DNA of 64,000 bases from Odontesthes bonariensis (Eukaryota; Chordata; Actinopteri; Atheriniformes; Atherinopsidae), in the NCBI RefSeq assembly GCF_027942865.1, contig NC_134510.1:32238663-32302662 (forward strand), given 5' to 3'. Under the pieces are notes generated by a model that did no database searches, was not told the origin of the DNA, and saw only the letters and a list, made by a program, of their open reading frames with translations. Positions 1 to 60,533 of this stretch are shown one piece after another. Made by a program: the position numbers and the translations under genes. Within the stretch, counting starts at the first letter, position 1; each line of letters starts with the position of its first letter.

Positions 1-786
1 AGGTGACAAGTTCGTGTCTACATGACTCACTGTTGCACCAATTGTTTATTTATCATGGTAAAATGGCCACAGCAACATGATAACTCACACTGAAAACACA
101 TGAAGTATCTCTCAGTGTCTTCTATGTAATGCCCACTGCAGCTTCACATAACTGAGTAAAAAAAAATGTATTTGTTTTCTACTTTAGGAGGCAGATTTCC
201 CAGACCCACTTTTAAAAAAACACTTTTGCTCTCACAGTTTATCTATAAACCACCAAAAAGTATATTTACTTGTTTTTTTTTATAACTGAGGTCAGAAATC
301 CAAAGAATTCCTACATGATGCAATACTCTGGTTGTGTTGTGATTCAAACACACAGAGACATACAACGCTTACTGCTCTGCCTGGTCTTTTTGTTTCCCTG
401 GATCTGTCTGTCAGGTTTAATAACGACTTAACATCTAATTTGAAATAGAAAAATGGTTCATCAGCTGCAAAATGCCTGCTTGTGGTGTGGTGCAGCAGTT
501 ATACTTCGTTTACACCTGCTGGTCCAGAAAGAATTCAAGTTGGCAACAACTGTCTTTGTAGAAATAATGTCCAAAAACTAAGTGGATTCAACCTAGTTAG
601 TTAAATCAACTCCAGAGACGAACAGCTGTTTAACTGTGTGAAAGATTAACAGCCTGTGCAGGACATATCAGTGTTTTTTACCACCTTAAACGGTGAGCAG
701 CTACTACAAGATATTTCAGGATGATTTGGCACTACTAATGCTGTTCATGGACAGTCACAGTATGATGTCCCTTTCTGCCCATCCAG
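1..786 (+). other. nagpa intron (5' part outside window)
   Basis: No coding sequence matching the preceding part of the enzyme is visible here. A usable acceptor ends at 786, and the first exon base (787) completes a codon begun in an exon outside the window. Confidence 0.6.
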
Positions 787-926
787 ATATCTGTCACAGG
801 AAGATGTTTTAGACCAGTCCAACCCCTTTGTCCAGTTGGTCAGCGGTGTCATATGGCTGCTGAGGAATGGTGAGATTTACATCAACCAGAGTCTGGAGGC
901 CGAATGTGACAATATACAGGAGACAG
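787..926 (+). CDS. nagpa: nagpa exon: glycosidase domain ([16 protein letters not shown]...)
   Basis: The translation from 788 matches the human segment YLSEEEVLDTENPFVQLLSGVVWLIRNG. The donor GT lies at 927. The exon starts and ends with single bases of split codons. Confidence 0.92.
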
Positions 927-3900
927 GTACATGCTGGATTTCCACATCTACACTGTGAATAATGGAGGAAAGATTTGTTATTAGACAGCAAGCTTTGGTA
1001 ATGGACCAGTCTGAAGGTTTTTGTTTTTATGGAAAATAATTCATCAGAAATTAAAAAGAATGTTGCAGATCCGAAGTTTAAAACCAAAAAGAAAACTAAT
1101 CTACAGCAGTTTTCTTGGAAAAAGCCAAGGATTTTCTCAGGTTTTTAGTTAGAGTGAACATGCAAATGGCTCTTTCTGGAATATTCTGCCCCTCCCTGTC
1201 CAGGATCAGTTCACCTGACCTCACCCTTGGCTGGGTGATAGCAACTGGATCAGCTCCAGTTTTTCAGTAAATAAAATGTAACAGTATCTCAGATGCTGCC
1301 CTCCATTGTCTGCATAACACAGAAACCCATCTGTGGCAGCACCACCAAAACACAACACTGTCATGTCTGATTAATAATGACAAGCATGAGTGTATGCGGT
1401 CCTGCCTCAGTTCACATCAAGTTTCTGTACAACATTGGACCTTATAGAGCGCACTTAAAACCGTAAACACCAGTGCAAGGGGGAAAAAAAAGATTTTTGA
1501 GTTTTTCCCAGAATCAATTTGTCTGTATTTACTTAAAGTCTCGGTGTTGAAACCACGCTACATATTTGGAATGATAGTCTATCCAGTTTTTAGTCAAACT
1601 TCTCTTTCAAAAAAGCTGATTTCCATGTATTTCTTTTTCAGTTGAATTGTACTAACTACTACTAATTATGTCTAAAATTAGTTCTCCAAAAGTTTAGTAT
1701 TGTTTTCGTAAGAATTAAAAAGAAAGATAGGAATTCATGTCAGTTGCCAACATTTGGTTATTGAGCCCAAAAATACTGGTACGTCAAATATTACAATCTT
1801 TAATCAGTTGACATTTTTGTCATGAGAAGCCTTAACTGGTGATCCTCACTCCTGTGTAGACTGAAGGCAACACGTGCAGTTAATTCCACATCAGTGAGAG
1901 GATCAAGTTAGTACAGTCTGTCCCATATACTGTATCAGTTAATGACCATTATCTGTCTCTTTCCAGTTAGCTGATCCTGGCATCCTGGATCCTGCTTTGT
2001 TTTTCATTACAACAAACTGCTGCAAATTGTTCGTCTGATTATCATTAAATATTCCTGCAGCTGTTATAGGAATATTCAATGATTAAACCTCCTATGAGAA
2101 CTTGTTTGTGTGATGCAGCCTGTTTTTATTTAGTCATGTGTGAGTTATGACCTTGGAAACAATGCTGGCAACATTTAAAATGACAAACTTGTTGGTGTAT
2201 CTCGCTGCAGGCTCTTAAAACCCAGTAAGGATCTCTTTGTACTCGAGGCTACTGCCACGTTTTTGTTTAGGGATATTTAGTGTAAGTTTAACCACTTCTG
2301 TTTAGTTTTTTTCCTGCTGAAAGACAAATTAGGGCTGTAGGAGAATTATTCATCAGGTCACAGCCACTTTCACAGGAGTTGAGTCAGATTTTACAATTTC
2401 CAGCAGAATTATTGAGCAATTTCAGTTGCTCAAAGTGACTCCCTGGAAATGTTGAATAATTATCTGCGCAGATACCCAAAAATGCCTTCTACCAAGTAAA
2501 TATTAGCTTGATATTTCCAAAATACTGATCGGCTATGCCAAGCATGCATACTGTCTGTGAGATAAAATCAATGCTTCTCCTAATGAAGTACCTTCATGCC
2601 TTTTTTACAGGGTCATTGCGCTATTTTGTGGATGTGGTGTCAGCCAGGACAGCAGTGGGCCACGATGCAGAGGGAAAACTAATTCTGTTTCAAATTGATG
2701 GCCAAACAGAAGTGAGGGGGTAAGAAAATAAAGCTGCTTTCAGCTGTCTCCTGTTCTCCTCTAAACATCTCGTTTCAAATGTTATGTAAAACATATTATC
2801 ATTTATTCCCATAGCCTTTAGTGACTCACAGGGTTTGGTATTAAATTCACAAAGTGCCCAACATAGAAATTAAACATGTGAGGTCTGTCTAAGCCACTAT
2901 CAAACACAGTTACACATCAAAATGAAACGTCATGTCAAGCTTTTATGTGAAATGCATTTAAAGGTTTTTCACATTTTATTTTTAAAAACAAGATATCCAT
3001 ATTTTAAAAGGGACACTGGCATTTCTCAGACACAATGCGAATTCTTATTCAGTCCAGAAAATAATATCATTTCTTTGAGGCAGAAGGTACTCAGCATCCA
3101 CACAGGAACTCTCCTTGAATTAGATCTGGAAATATCTTGTCAGAGAAGAAGAGAACGAAGCAGTTTGTCCACCAAGCTCCCAAAGCCATCTCTGTTTCCA
3201 GTCTTCAGTACTTTACAGACGCATTTTAATCAATATGAGGTTCATTACGCAACTCTAAATCATTGTGGGCAGACACATCACAGAAGACTGTTTAAATCAA
3301 AATAGAAATACAGGTTTAGGCATTTTTAAGGCCAGAACAGCGCTTTCACATATCAAATGTATTAGCAAAATGGATGAGGAGAAATTAACTATTGAGCTCG
3401 AGACATAGAGCTACATAATCCACAATCCCAGCATTGATTCTCATCAGAATATTGCTCTGGTAAGTCAAAAAGTGTAAGTAGCGTGTAATCACACAGACAT
3501 TTGGTATGGTTAAAAATGTTATCATACAATGCGATTGTAATGTTAAAACAATTATATGTTTTATAGTTGAAATTTAAACTAAACTAAACACTAAATGGCA
3601 CAACTTCGCTACCTGCTGATGCAAACCAGGAGGTCACATGCATTACCCTTTTCTATTAGATATAAAATATCGAATTAGCAAAGTAAGTTTTGACTCTTTG
3701 TAGTCAGAAAACAGCTAATATGTGTTTTTGTCTACCTGCTATATAGGTTGTTCTGCCGCTTTCATGACATAATATCACTGATCAAAACAGTAATTTTTCA
3801 ACCATTTTCATTAAAAACTGACAACTCTGATTGGGACCCCAAAAAAGGGTTACATCGGTTTATTTCCATAGCATCTTAAGGCTTTCCAAGAAGTGTCTAA

Positions 3901-6900
3901 ATAAGGTAAATGGATAACAACGGTGCAAATTGTGAGAAAGATAAACATTAAGATGATGGATGGATGGATGCCGGTTAAGCTAAATGAGAAAAACACAAAA
4001 AGAGTCCAAAGTTGGTAAACAGAGACTGATACACGAGGATGAAAACATCCCACACTGAGTGTGGTAAACAGGAATGCATTGGAGGGGCATTTTAAACCCT
4101 AAAAGGGCTTGTTTGTGAGATGAATTCATCCTGTCAGGCTAATGTCACCTCAACCCACTTAAGGTCCTTTCACTAATCGATTGTATTGATCTGACTTTCC
4201 CTCCACCCTCAGAGCAGTGACCCTGCAACCCTGTAGTGACTCAAAAGATTAATGCGCTGCTGTTAATGATCTAGCTCTGAAAAGCCCAACACTCTGACAT
4301 GTCTGAGCATATTTGCTGTCCTCTGTATATCTCCAGTCAATATCAGGCCAACACCCGCTCAATACAACGTGTGGTCAGTCAGCCCGAACGGTGACCAAAC
4401 GGTGACCCGCTGTCCCTCATGAACAACACATCTGTCCCTTCAAATTCTTAGTAGTGGCTGCTAAATATACATTGTTGTGTTATACACCCAGGTGCTGTTA
4501 CTGTTTATATAGGATGCTGAATTTTACCCGGTAAACACAGACATTGACCACAAACCTTTGCAGTGTCGTTGGTGTGTTTTAGTGCCAAAATAATAAATCA
4601 AAGTTCAGTCATGAATTAATTATCATGTAACAACACACAGATGCTTATATGGTCTATGTACCAGAAACCATAAATGAGCATGTCAAATAAAAACTGAGTG
4701 CATGTCCAGTATCCTCAGTATGGTGTCCATTGCTGGATATATTAGACTTAAATTGCCACTCAGTCTTACAGAGAGACCAGCTCCTGACAGGCCACATCAT
4801 AAACCGAATGAGTTGATATCAGTCTGCTATGATACGACCACTTTCACTGAGCATACATGAAGCGTATCAGTTGTGCTGGTTTGTGTATTTAAAAAGATTT
4901 GCACCATATCTTTGGTTTCTGTTGGTCAGGTGCTGTTTGGTTGATTAGCTTTGTGTTTTCTAATCCCACTGCCTGCAGTTACATTTTTTTCTGTCTACGC
5001 AGAATGAATCTTTGGGAAATGGCTAAATTTCTAAAAGAGAATGGAGTAATCAATGCCATTAATTTGGATGGAGGCGGGTCTTCCACCTATGTGGTTAATG
5101 GCTCATTGGCCAGCTACCCCTCAGATCATTGGTGAGACATTAAACCCCTCATATTTGATACTTGGCATGTGAAAGGTTGTTATTTTTTACTGTGAGATGT
5201 TAAAGGTCAAAGATGAAACGAGGCTTGATCTTTCTCTTCTCTGCTCTCCACGGCTCCATCGTTCCAGCAAATCGGATAACAGGTGGCGCTGTGGCCGCGA
5301 TGTGTCTACCATCCTGTGCATTCATGAACGGCGATGCCAGCCAGAAAACTGCAGCGGGCACGGCGAATGTGTGGACGGACACTGTCAGTGCCAGAAAGGC
5401 TGGCAGGGCACCGCCTGTGACTCTCTGGTGTGTCAGCCACCTGCCTGCGGAGCCCACGGTTTCTGCACTGCCGGTAAGTGCAGAGGTGGAGCTCATTTAG
5501 TAGCAGCTGTTGGAGAAACAGACAAGCTGTTGAACATACAAGCATGTTTAAGAAAGATAAGGTAAATTAGCTCCTGAAACATCAGACACGTGCAGTCAGT
5601 AACGGCTCTACAACATTAAGATAAGAGACAGATGGATAAGAGACTCCTGGGAAAAAACATTTAAGCCTCCTTGTCCTTATTATGTGTCACAGTGGGATAA
5701 GAAATTGTTGTAACATCAGATTTTATTGGAGTTGCTTTGACATGTCATAACTGCACCTCATATAAATGTCATGCATTAGCCACAATAAGGACAAAAACCC
5801 TATTTTTTGTTCATAGTGATGATTGGTTTCCTCCTCATTTTAACCATTTGGAGAGTTCTAAAAGGCTCTGAGACCCTCTTCATAGATGGGAAGATTTAAA
5901 CAGGATTTTCTTGACAGATCTACAGTATAGATAGAGATGTCTATGTAAAATCTCTGTTCACTTTGCCCACAACACATCCTGTGAGTTGTGGTTTGTGTGT
6001 GTCTGCTGTGCTTCATGTGTTTCTCTGTGTTGTAGACGGCTGCGTATGTGACGCTGGATGGAGAGGAAACAACTGCAGTCACGGTAAACAAAACCCTGTC
6101 TGGTCATACATGAATAAATGTACTGTAGACACACAGACGTGTGTCACTGACTTTAAAAACCCTTAATCCCTTACACTGAACCAAGCCTAAAGGCCCGCTC
6201 ACAGCAATATATAAATAACACAGATGTATTTTGTTGTAAACTTTGACCTGTAGGTTTCCACAGCTGATAAATATCAAACAAGACTCATCAGAGCTGAGCT
6301 CTGCTGGCTTCTTAAGTGTTCTGCAAAAGACCAACGGTTTCCGAGGCGGTTTTGAGATGAGTCAGTATTCCTTAAGCGAGTGAGATAAGACTAAAAGACT
6401 GGGTTTTTCCTCAGTACCTATTTTTGAACGATAAATGCTGACTGATAAAACGCCAAAACCTTTGGTTGTTTTTTCCTTGTTTATTAGATATTGTTTCAGA
6501 ATCAGAATCAGAAAAGATTTTATTATTTTAGTAATTTTCCCATCACAAGGAATTTGGCCTGGCCTGTTTGGTGCAATAAAACCAAAAATAATAATAATAT
6601 GATAAAATATCAAATAATAAACATATATGTACAAAGTATTAGTAAAATGAAGAGCTGAGGGCAGAAGAGTGCGTTAATGTAATGCAGAGTCCAACACGGA
6701 GACAGTACGTTAATATAACGTGTAGTGTCAGTGGGGATAAGGGGTTCATGTCAGTGGGGGGGGGGGTACAGCCGGCCTTGTTGGTGAGGCCAACCGCAGA
6801 GGGGAAGAAGCTGTTCTTATGGCGGGAGGTTTTGGTCCTGATGGACCGCAGCCTCCTGCCAGAGGGGAGTGCTTCGAACAGTTTGTGTCCGGGGTGGGAG

Positions 6901-7815
6901 GGGTCAGCCACAATCTTACCTGCACGCCTCAGGTGCAGGTAAGTGGAGGGCCATGTTGACTGTGTCGTGTACAGACCTGTTGGCTCTGTAGGCGAACTGC
7001 AGGGGGTCCAGGAGAGGGTCCGTGATGGCTTTCAGGTGTGAAAGCACAAGGCGCTCAAATGACTTCACCACAGAGGTCAGGGCGACGGGTCTGTAGTCAT
7101 TAAGTCCTGTGATCCTTGGTTTTTTGGGGACTGGGATGATGGTGGAGATCTTGAGGCAGGCTGGTACGTGGCATGTCTCCAGTGAGGTGTTGAAAATGTC
7201 TGTGAACACCGGGGACAGCTGATCAGCACAGTGCTTCAGGGTGGAGGGAGAGACAGAGGCTACGGCTACACGAAAACGTTTTTCACTATAAACGATACTT
7301 TTTCTTATCGTTTGGCTGTCGCAGCCACACGGAGCCGGCGTTCCCACTACCCCAAAATGATAGTTTTTGAGAACGGGTTCCAGAGTGGGAAGATTTGAAA
7401 ACGGCGTCGTTTTGTTTCCATTGTTACAGCGAAAACAGATTTGTTTACATCTGCGTCAGCCACATGGCTAACGCAGTGACGTATACACATACGTCAGTGA
7501 CCAGAACAAAAAGCGGCTTCCATTCAAAATCCGGAAGAAGAAGACAACACAACAAGGACAGACAGCGATCATCATGGACCCCACAACATTGATAGCAGCA
7601 CTGCTGCAGACACTGCTAACTACAGCGGCGTTGTTGAAGGAACAACGTGAGCTTTGCTCTGGTAGAAGTAGGGGCGTACACGCATGCGCATTGCTTCTTC
7701 TATTGTTCTGGTGTAACCGGTGGGGGTGGCTTACAGCTAGGGGTGGGCGATATGTATCGTTTACGAAATTATCGTGAATGTTGTTTTGACGATGAGTAAT
7801 TTTGCAATATCGAGA

Positions 7816-7855
<40 letters not shown>

Positions 7856-10800
7856 TTTTTCAATCGCCAAAAATCAATAAAGTGCGGCGCCAGTGGTCCT
7901 CTGCCCTTACCACGGCGCCACGCCCTGCTTTGAACACTCAAATTTTTTCAAAGTAAACGCTTCGGACCCAGCGGGACACTCAGCTAAGAGCATCGAGGGG
8001 GCGCCGAGAGGCAGGGGCTGGGACAGACAGTAGCTCGCCTCGCGGCGGACCGTCAGCTCGATCACGAGATCCAACTACGAGCTTTTTAACTGCAGCAACT
8101 TTAAGATACGCTATTGGAGCTGGAAATACCGCGGCTGCTGGCACCAGACTTGCCCTTCAATTGATCTCCGTTAAAGGATTGAAAGAGTCCTGTATTGTTA
8201 TTTTTCGTCACTACCGGCTCCCCGAGTCGGGAGTGGGTAATTTGCGCGCCTGCTGCCTTCCTTGGATGTGGTAGCCGTTTCTCAGGCTCCCTCTCCGGAG
8301 GGAGAAGTAGCCTGAGAAACGGCTCGCGGTTATCTAGAGTCACCAAAGCGGCCGCGGCACCCCGAGAGGCACCCCGCATGGGTTTTGGGTCTGATAAATG
8401 CACGCATCCCCGAAGGTCAGCGCTCGTTTTGCATGTATTAGCTCTAGAATTGCCACAGTTATCCAAGTAACGGTAGAGCGATCAAAGGAACCATAACTGA
8501 TTTAATGAGCCATTCGCAGTTTCACTGTACCGGCCGTGTGTGCTTAGACTTGCATGCTTGTGTTAATTTTATTGTGATCTTAATGCAAGTTTTAATTTTT
8601 TTTTTAAATATCGTCAAAATATCTTTATCGTGAAAATCCTAAAAAATATCGAGATTTTTTTTTTTGCCCATATCGCCCACCCCTACTTACAGCGCACCAA
8701 GAGGTGTTTCGTGTGTACTGCATCGTTTCATCGTTTTTCATCGTTTTCGTCTGGACCTGAGTCTTTACAGCAGCGTTGCCGGATGGCCGCAATAATTTTC
8801 GTACCCGTTTTAAAAAAAAACCTCGTTTCGTTTTCGTGTAGCCGTAGCCAGAGTCTGGCCCGGCTGCTTTGCGGGGTTCTGCCTCTTGAAGAGCCTGACG
8901 TCCCTCTCCAGGATGGAGAGAGTCGTTACTGTGGTGGGGGAGGGAGCCTCTGAGGTGTGCAGCTGTGGAGAGGCCCCTACTGTGGTGGGGGAGGTGGGGC
9001 TGGTGAGCTGGAGTTGGGGTATGGTGTCACGGGGGATGGTGTCAGGGCTGTCCCATTGTCTTTCTAAAGGGCGGATTATAGTTCTGCGTCTATCGTCTTG
9101 ACGTGTTGCTTTGCTCTGGTCGCGAACCACTTTTCATGTTATGGTTCTGCAACCTCGGTCTGGAATTTCTAGGGACGCACAGCAGTTTCCCCTCGCGAGA
9201 ATTTCGGTGGGTGGTGACGAGAACTTTCGGCGGCGCCGGTGGAAGTGTTTATCTTTCAAAAAAAAAAAAGTGTATGCAAGATATGGATCTGGAGTTGCTC
9301 GACATCGAAGAAGAATAGCTTCTTTTATTGGAGTTGGCGAAAATGCAAAGGAGGAAGCCACACCGAGGACCAATCACAGCCGCTTTTGTCTGCGCACTTC
9401 CGTTGGTGGTCTGCGTGCGTCCGACGTGTAGTCAGGATTTTTCTGAGGTGCATGACGACGCGCGCAGAGCCTCTGCGTGGGGGAGTGGTCAAGATTTTGA
9501 CGTTCGCAGAGGCTCTGCGTCCGAGCGTCAGAGGCTTTGCGCCTGAAGCATAAATCAGGCTTAAGCGACAGTAAAACTCATTAAGGATCAGGATTGTCCA
9601 GGGAGTGGGGGGTTTTCGGCTTGTAGTTAGATAAGATCATAGACGCCTCAATCCTCTCCAGACAGAAGCAGAGTCATTAGCCCCTTTCACACTGCCGAAT
9701 AACCCGCGTTTAATCCGCGAATTTAGCGTGTTCGCTGTTCACACTGCCGATCCGGGCTGCCGCGTCAACTCGACTCGCCTTTCGACCCGCGTCGGACCCT
9801 AGTCTTTTTGCCGAGCCGAGTTTGGTGTGAACGCAATCGACGCGGGTCGGACGTTGGCGTGACGTGAGGAGTTTAAAAGACAGAATGGACAGCTGATTCA
9901 GAACAACAGCGACAGGTGAGGACAAGTTTTACTCTGTTTTAGCCTACATCAAGTTCGAAACATTTTTTAATATGGCCAGCTGGGGAGACAAGGAGGTCCG
10001 CGAGCTCCTCAGCCTCCGAGCAGAGGACGTTATTTACCGCCACATTTCGGGAACTATAGTGCTCTTGTATTCTCCGCATATGTTCTTCGGCGGCATCCCA
10101 CGTTGTAACCATCCACACCCCGTACAATAACATCTCCATGAACTGCATATACAATTGCAAAAACGAGTCCTCAAGGTGTGTTTAACCCTACCTCCGACGC
10201 ATGGCTTGTGCCTACGTCATTGTACACGCCCAGCATTTTATGTGTTTCGTGTGACGCTCTGCCACTAGGCAACGCCCCCTGAACTCGGCTTCAGGCGACA
10301 CGGGTCACCAACACGCCAAGCGTTCACATTGCTCGACGCGGGTCGAAGGTGCAATTTGGACCCGCTAAGGTAGCGGGTCGCAGTGTGAAAGGGGCTATTG
10401 GCTGAGAACTGTTGTTGAATTTTCTCAGAGTACAGTCGCTTAGCTTCTCTCACCCCCTTGATAAACCTGTACTTAGCCTCTTTAAATCTGCCTCTGTCCT
10501 GACTCCTGAACGCCTCCTCCTTCACCAACCGTAGCTGTCTGAGCTTGGCTGTGAACCAAGGCTTGTTGTTGTTGTACCTCACTGTGGTGCGTGATGGTAC
10601 ACAACTGTCCTCACAGAAACTGATGTAGGACGTGACAGCCTCAGTAAACTCGTCCAGATTGTTGGTAGTAGCCCTGAAAATGTCCCAGTCGGTGCAGTCC
10701 AGACATGCCTGAAGATCTCCCACAGCTTCACTGGTCCAACTCGTCCACTTCTTAGATGTCCTCACAACAGGTTTAGAGCTTTAACTTCTGTCTGTATGCA

Positions 10801-23779: not shown

Positions 23780-24300
23780 ATTACTAGTTTGTGACATTAG
23801 TGTCATGCCATGGACTCATGACATGTGTTTTATGTTTTAGATCATGTTTGGTTTTTAGATTATGTCTTTAGTTCTTAGTTTAGATCATGTTTTTGGTTCA
23901 GGTCTTGATTAGTTTCATTCACGTCACCTGCACTCATTTCCTTCAGCTGCACTCCATCCTTAATCACCCTCCACAGTATTTAGTTTCCAGGTTTCCTTTC
24001 ATTTCTTGTGAGATTCTTTACGTCACACGCCACGCCACGCCACGCCACGCCACGCCACGCCACGCCACGCCACGCCACGCCACGCCACGCCACGCCACGC
24101 CACGCCACGCCACGCCACGCCACGCCACGCCACGCCACAAAGCTAAGTCCTTTTTTCCATAGTATGCCAAGTGTTTTGTTTTGTTGTACTTTTTCCACAG
24201 TTCAGGTTTTTCTATCCGGCTCAGCCGCGCTTTCCTTTTGATACTTTGTTTTGTTAAATAAATCAAGTTTTACTTTTGGAAAATCCGCATCCGTGTCCTC
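23780..24300. repeat. probable dispersed repeat surrounding the CACGC array
   Basis: Low-complexity pyrimidine-rich sequence (gttttagatcatg, ttcattcacgtcacctgcac) leads into the array and ends with an AATAAA-containing stretch near 24255. The style resembles a widespread teleost interspersed repeat, but I cannot name the family. Confidence 0.35.
24026..24135. repeat. (CACGC)22 perfect pentanucleotide array
   Basis: Twenty-two uninterrupted copies of CACGC are followed by the partial unit CAC. Because five is not a multiple of three and the unit has no stop codon in any frame, the array is open in all six frames (RHATP repeats on plus, GVAWR on minus). Those long frames are not genes. Confidence 0.97.
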
Positions 24301-59864: not shown

Positions 59865-60533
59865 TTAGTGGCGCTGAGGCAGGGGGTCATGGCTGTGGCT
59901 CCTCTGAATGTAAGCTATTGCGTCCCTGTACGAGAGGGCCAGCTGGGGCCGGTCGTACATCTCACTCAGTGCCTGGAACTTTGGGCCCCAGCGCGACAGC
60001 CGGTCATACGCAAAACCACCCTCATCATCTTCCTCCTCCCCTTTGTTGCCAGGAGTAATTTTTCTACATGACACTGCTGACCCCAGAGAACTGAGACTTC
60101 CCGCTGGGGACCCAGAACCTTCCACGCACCAGACGTGGTAGGCGTCTGGCGGGAAAGCCTCGCTGTCGATGTCCGCCTCCCAAATGATTCGCGCCACGTA
60201 GCTTTTAAAGTCCACATGGGAGCGCGATCCAGATGGGGCACCGGCGTAACTGCCTGCCTCACTCGTCTCCATGTCTCTGCCTGCATGAGTGGCGTAGTTG
60301 GCGTAGGCTGCATCGCCGTGGTAGCTGCTGACATTGGCGGCATGCTGATGGTGGTGGTGATGGTGATGTGGGATGCTGAGGTAAGGAGCGCCTGAGCTGC
60401 AGGAGGAACTGGATGGATGGACCTCCTCCTGGGACCCTGGGGAGGATTTGATGAGCGGGGCGGTGGTGCAGGACGATGACTGAGACAAACTGGAGCAAAG
60501 TGGTCGCTTCAGCTCGGTGATATCATATCCATT
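59865..60533 (-). CDS. cadherin last coding exon: catenin-binding tail
   Basis: It starts NGYDITELKRPLC, passes the poly-His run and DFKSYVARIIWEADIDSEA, then the catenin core GSGSPAGSLSSLGS, an acidic insertion and RWGPKFQALSEMY. It extends about 30 residues past the core to the stop at 59865-59867. Confidence 0.93.
   Translation of the reverse strand, partial: NGYDITELKRPLCSSLSQSSSCTTAPLIKSSPGSQEEVHPSSSSCSSGAPYLSIPHHHHHHHQHAANVSSYHGDAAYANYATHAGRDMETSEAGSYAGAPSGSRSHVDFKSYVARIIWEADIDSEAFPPDAYHVWCVEGSGSPAGSLSSLGSAVSCRKITPGNKGEEEDDEGGFAYDRLSRWGPKFQALSEMYDRPQLALSYRDAIAYIQRSHSHDPLPQRH

Follow-up and report, generated by a model that had tools for sequence, protein, structure and literature searches.

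Evidence for a mobile non-autonomous hAT family carrying an antisense 18S rRNA gene fragment in the genome of Odontesthes bonariensis

A transposon found in a 64,000-nucleotide stretch of the Odontesthes bonariensis genome (hereafter the window) very probably belongs to a mobile hAT family, non-autonomous and carrying host 18S rRNA sequence in antisense, the capture having replaced the transposase gene and a cut-down form having then spread. The past mobility of the family is read from its copies, their flanks and their duplications.

An hAT element with 18S cargo, nested in a MITE

The features of the element and its surroundings are as follows (window coordinates).

7258–8849: outer Harbinger-like MITE with ends GGCTACGGCTACACGAAAACG, host of the nested hAT insertion
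7730–7737, plus strand: left copy of the target-site duplication CTTACAGC, which is single in the empty sites L100–L102
7738–8685: non-autonomous hAT element, 948 bp
7738–7754, plus strand: left terminal inverted repeat TAGGGGTGGGCGATATG
7738–7924, plus strand: left arm, family consensus 1–187, common to the parent-like hAT
7924–8556, minus strand: captured 18S piece, rearranged, ~633 bp, covering 18S nt 49 to ~nt 801
8173–8190, minus strand: place where the 18S piece has lost 31 nt (about nt 515–545), located by alignment with L096, L086, L088, L084 and L097
8214–8216: 3-nt insertion CGG, seen in many derived copies
8273–8324: inverted duplication/hairpin with two 24-nt arms, replacing ~115 nt of 18S (about nt 286–400)
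8557–8685, plus strand: right arm, common to the parent-like hAT, ~20 bp of it absent
8669–8685, minus strand: right terminal inverted repeat
8686–8693, plus strand: right copy of the target-site duplication CTTACAGC

The inverted repeats at the two ends are perfect over 17 bp. A search of the window with TAGGGGTGGGCGATATG at up to three mismatches returned two matches (0.03 expected), and both are the element termini. The perfect termini and the exact 8-bp duplication described in a first-pass annotation were thus both recovered. Its figure of about 630 bp of antisense 18S agrees with the mapped block, the Rfam model SSU_rRNA_eukarya matching the minus strand inside the element (306.7 bits, E 9.3e-91), and the deletions it had reported in the rRNA piece correspond to the 31-nt loss and to the stretch replaced by the inverted duplication. 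Among the four open reading frames of at least 150 aa in the window, none lies within 7738–8685.

The outer MITE has inverted ends and a 3-bp duplication, AGA, at 7255–7257 and 8850–8852. Joining its flanks without the hAT element and with one duplication gave a 337-base query for empty sites, which returned 1513 first-look candidates in the genome. All 40 of the candidates scored cover at least bases 2–324 and therefore cross the join. Three empty copies were read (L100–L102; 626–638 bp, duplications TAA or TTA), and each has a single CTTACAGC at the insertion point. The same candidate number indicates that the Harbinger-like MITE is abundant in this genome.

Two other features of the window were recorded. 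An open frame on the minus strand at 59865–60488 matches the cadherin-type domain PF01049 (E 2.4e-17) and is probably an exon of a cadherin gene, and positions 24026–24138 hold a perfect CACGC pentamer repeat of 22.6 copies. The cadherin-type domain and the likeness of the 18S sequence to that of teleosts fit an animal, fish host.

A mobile family with many different insertion sites

The search covered one genome of 945,434,557 bases in 187 contigs. The whole element returned 242 candidates, 40 of which were scored, and 36 of these 40 match to the end at 91–100%; the 36 include the window copy, and three of them begin at base 4. Their alignment leaves out the truncated L028, L045, L046 and L047, and three of its 36 rows stand for one duplicated place. 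Three loci on C13 (L013, L015 and L016, at 23.9, 27.9 and 28.6 Mb) represent a single insertion, copied by segmental duplication together with 150 bp of identical flank on either side.

Pattern searches allowing up to two mismatches, each with a reversed-pattern control that returned 0, matched the right 18S/transposon junction at 164 genome sites, the left junction at 96, the hairpin at 137 and the 28-nt left end at 152, counts that miss truncated or more diverged copies. Perfect 8-bp duplications, 30 different ones, flank 30 of the first 40 copies read. The other ten comprise one copy with 7 of 8 positions matching, one with 6 of 8, three that stand for one duplicated place and have a damaged left end, four truncated copies and one with no duplication. 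Both ends are present in 20 of 23 further loci, rRNA in 18 of those 20 and perfect duplications in 13 of those 18. Altogether, 43 of the 58 rRNA-carrying copies read have perfect 8-bp duplications, all different with strand ignored, and some of the copies that lack one are truncated or decayed.

Among the first 100 listed of the 152 left ends, 94 carry the rRNA piece (83 by a nearby junction and 11 by reading) and 6 do not. A junction was taken as nearby when a left junction lay within 400 bp or a mismatch-free right junction within 12 kb, with 100 of the 164 right junctions listed. Reading the 17 left ends that had no listed junction gave the 11 rRNA carriers, L081 holding only part of the piece, and the 6 without rRNA.

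The first-pass annotation had proposed that recurrent junctions beside different duplications would reveal a mobile rRNA-carrying family. The junction and duplication counts do so, and the number of both right and left junctions excludes an rRNA piece confined to this locus. That the rRNA moved with the transposon, as had been suggested, is borne out by the many sites that hold rRNA-carrying copies, flanked by 8-bp duplications that differ from site to site.

Two longer copies contain further insertions. L062, which is 2.1 kb long, has taken up another repeat. The 6-kb copy L063 on C17 was considered as an autonomous rRNA-carrying master and rejected, since its transposase belongs to a separate nested hAT: positions 376–5547 of this locus are a different hAT with its own duplication, GTCACTAC, lying within the rRNA piece of the copy and holding a 693-aa open transposase frame with DUF4371 and Dimer_Tnp_hAT domains. 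In viral contigs, the terminal-repeat and junction patterns returned 0 and 0 matches, and in a broader collection of genome contigs the 17-bp repeat occurred at 12 places, one match each, under titles of bacteria or archaea.

The 18S block stands where a parent-like hAT has its transposase gene

Six rRNA-free loci (L067 and L073–L077) match the family within consensus 1–187 (L073 up to 191) and then continue into another interior; L067 also matches consensus 829–948. In L073, 3,245 bp separate the left end from the right terminal repeat. Four open pieces of this interior were examined: one matches zf-BED (E 3e-5), one matches Dimer_Tnp_hAT (E 9e-11) and two have no domain match. The gene is broken, with stops in all three frames read. 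The parent-like hAT is thus formed by the same two arms around a broken transposase gene of the BED-finger/hAT-dimerisation type, and the 18S block occupies the position of that gene.

The eight flanking bases match in 2 of 8 positions at L073 and in 6 of 8 at L067. Since L074 and L077 agree in their upstream sequence, and L077 is matched for more than 800 bases by both L075 and L076, these four loci on C16 are probably one duplicated insertion. A search with 170 aa of the parent transposase gave 1488 candidates, and among the 150 scored the full-length matches were L073 (100%) and L104 (96%); partial protein matches of 81–98% lie on C16, C21 and C2, and the next nearly full-length matches are at ~54%. 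L104 is without the first 29 bp, and no terminal repeat was detected in the 3.5 kb examined there. No intact autonomous parent was found in this genome, the frames of L073 being broken and L104 being end-deficient.

Early copies, a cut-down form and the order of events

The captured host fragment has an identifiable donor, the native 18S gene of the same genome (L096), which runs into a contig edge and apparently contains small indels. The captured piece, lying antisense to the plus strand, covers 18S nt 49 to ~nt 801 and was ~750 bp long at first. Four copies (L086, L088, L084 and L097) retain both about nt 286–400 and the 31 nt near nt 515–545; L087 also retains about nt 286–400, making five copies in all that keep a stretch lost from the dominant form. 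L088 is the copy nearest to a plain capture, since L097 is without another 18S stretch, a tandem duplication marks L086, and the left terminus of L084 is missing from its locus. L097 further has a long run of CACGCC repeats at its left junction, where parent-like elements have about two.

Two changes define the derived form. The 31 nt were lost between AAAG repeats, this 4-bp motif bounding the region in the intact form. In addition, ~20 nt stand in place of ~115 nt and make up an inverted repeat together with the 24 nt beside them, giving a 52-bp hairpin. All 36 aligned copies have this hairpin, with 0–3 differences, and it folds well (z −5.6); in L020, both arms now read the same (ACTTCTCC), the left one as though it had been corrected from the right. 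Many derived copies, including the window copy, also have the CGG insertion and further changes.

In a 52-row tree of the rRNA part, with L062, L063, L069, L078, L081 and L087 left out, a split at 100/100 sets L086, L088, L084, L097 and the native L096 apart from 47 derived rows; the inner forks of this tree are mostly weak and its bootstrap had not settled. The hairpin is seen in 45 of the 47 derived rows, and L064 and L083 have a deletion there. The captured piece was cut down later, inside the family, and the derived form accounts for most of the sites counted. The shared junctions indicate one capture, and among the copies read from the 164 right-junction sites the capture was apparently single. 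One capture, a later cut-down and then a burst is the simplest order of events.

Other 18S sequence in the assembly was also considered. Of 15 18S places, five lie in family copies (L084, L086, L087, L088 and L097), nine look rDNA-like and one, L098, is neither. The rDNA-like unit L091 has 18S from the first base to about nt 420 and then other, possibly ITS1-like, sequence; L085, L089, L090, L092, L093 and L095 (on C33, C34, C8 and C122) align with it. Such units are either a truncated rDNA array or an assembly gap, and an 18S 3′-end motif has 0 exact matches in the assembly. As donors, the truncated units (L091 and the like on C33, C34, C122 and C8) were rejected, since L091 leaves the 18S sequence at ~nt 420 and the captured piece reaches ~nt 801. 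L098 (C19:29049600-29051000) and L099 (C8:388800-390300) are 18S fragments outside the family, without its right arm, and L099 resembles the truncated rDNA units.

How the 18S piece may have been captured

We propose that a transposase excised a parent copy and left a gap, and that repair of this gap would have copied from one arm, left its template and run into rDNA. Rejoining the other arm would then have placed 18S sequence where the transposase gene had been. The hairpin could have arisen afterwards through a fold-back error during copying, and a hAT transposase acting in trans would recognise the element ends and spread the family. By reading of the alignments, the junction overlaps are ~1 bp and 0 bp, values that neither prove nor exclude gap repair.

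An alternative route starts from two hATs flanking an 18S stretch in an rDNA unit, whose outer ends were mobilised together and whose extra sequence was lost later. Capture by tandem insertion and re-mobilisation is proposed for several superfamilies including hAT in a paper on plant Pack-TYPE elements (PMC8903248), and it would likewise leave the 18S piece strictly between two ends. We nevertheless consider it unlikely here. Measured on the parent, the left arm breaks off at position 187 and the right arm takes up close to the 3′ end, as after a single internal replacement, whereas two flanking elements would need two deletions reaching exactly the 18S borders. Moreover, an inner terminal-repeat match (at up to three mismatches) was found in 0 of the 58 rRNA-carrying elements.

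Median divergence from the consensus among the 36 copies is 1.3%, or 0.9% outside CpG, with simple-repeat columns left out. Substitutions number 311 in 22,795 positions of the rRNA and 124 in 9,330 of the ends (Fisher p 0.83), and this equal divergence argues against selection on the cargo; the rRNA part looks like passenger DNA. One could suppose instead that the piece aids the element, through antisense 18S RNA, small RNAs from the hairpin or an influence on chromatin, for example, and that this is why the element outdid the parent. The rRNA on 94 of the first 100 listed left ends and a well-folding hairpin in every aligned copy would suit such a benefit. The equal divergence of rRNA and ends speaks against it, the hairpin is common to the copies by descent, and in DNA-transposon families it is common for short deletion derivatives to become more numerous than their parents. 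We regard an advantage of this kind as very improbable.

A more specific speculation, with a very small chance of being right, is that the rDNA piece (by its hairpin, its GC-rich sequence or an antisense RNA) affects silencing or mobility and made this form dominant, and that the antisense copies feed back on rRNA via small RNAs. If true, rDNA would be a donor of useful cargo to an animal hAT.

Two further readings are hardly credible. The first takes the cargo for an rRNA-derived SINE or a processed rRNA pseudogene lying by chance between hAT-like ends; rRNA-derived retroposons are indeed known (5S-derived SINEs), yet exact 8-bp duplications at hAT ends in 43 of the 58 copies read, inverted ends and junctions at fixed places all contradict it. 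The second, a misjoining of rDNA reads to repeats, could appeal to rDNA being hard to assemble and seemingly only partly present in this assembly, and fails against the same right junction at 164 places and copies with their own flanks and duplications.

Class membership and known systems

Assignment to hAT follows from three properties: the 8-bp duplication, perfect in 43 of the 58 rRNA-carrying copies; the short terminal inverted repeats, here 17 bp and perfect, against 10–25 bp given for hATs (PMC3942097); and a transposase with a dimerisation region in the parent-like L073, where the gene is broken. The target preference nTnnnnAn of Ac-type hATs (PMC8961557) is only partly present: in 30 duplications, T stands at position 2 in 14 (p 0.04) and A at position 7 in 19 (p 0.0002), p values that assume a base share of 0.3.

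The element had been called a hAT MITE. By its captured cargo and its length it resembles a Pack-hAT more than a classical MITE. MITEs are short (commonly under about 800 bp), non-coding and present in high copy number; this element has 948 bp and 164 right-junction matches. Like Pack-TYPE elements, it has an identifiable donor (L096), no transposase frame of at least 150 aa and many copies with cargo.

Similarities with several described systems are evident, each with its difference. According to PMC8903248, Pack-TYPE and Pack-hAT elements have terminal repeats and duplications, are non-autonomous, hold captured host DNA and form multi-copy clusters, as here; unlike ours, those described are from plants and carry coding DNA, the words "animals", "rRNA" and "ribosomal" occurring 0 times in that text. 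Maize Ds2 and Ds-l4 are likewise non-autonomous hATs with filler copied from host genes, and PMC3260210 describes such captured gene fragments as rare in hATs and cites repair of excision breaks as their suggested cause; there, 2 Ds2 and 9 Ds-l4 elements are involved, in a plant, in contrast to one rRNA fragment at 164 matched sites here. The Drosophila hAT MITEs BuT2 (PMC3942097) and mar (PMC3517528) are also short non-autonomous derivatives of a hAT, with 8-bp duplications and recent amplification; BuT2 MITEs are described as internal deletions (PMC3942097), whereas the interior here is rDNA.

The likeness to rRNA-derived SINEs, of which 5S-derived ones are known, is that both are mobile elements that scatter pieces of rRNA genes. 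SINEs derived from 28S also exist, and in rRNA-derived SINEs the rRNA part supplies the promoter. Those are retroposons, with variable duplications and no inverted ends, whereas the family described here is a DNA transposon with exact 8-bp duplications, inverted ends and an antisense passenger.

No rRNA-carrying hAT in an animal was recognised among titles and abstract starts of the open PMC literature, which is weak evidence of absence, and passages in two papers dealing with rDNA and repeats of the Asian seabass describe none. Gene capture by hATs is known in maize; an amplified rRNA cargo in an animal appears to be a new version of it.

Implications

With more than 160 dispersed 18S pieces, the family could confound FISH mapping with 18S probes, the filtering of rRNA reads and the automated annotation of rRNA genes, and this could extend to any relatives that share it. 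For transposon biology, it offers a worked example of an excisive DNA transposon that swaps its gene for host DNA and then spreads it. A single genome here preserves the parent-like element, the gene that served as donor, the early copies and the burst that followed. Because 18S rDNA evolves slowly, changes in the cargo can be polarised, and the order of events can thus be read.
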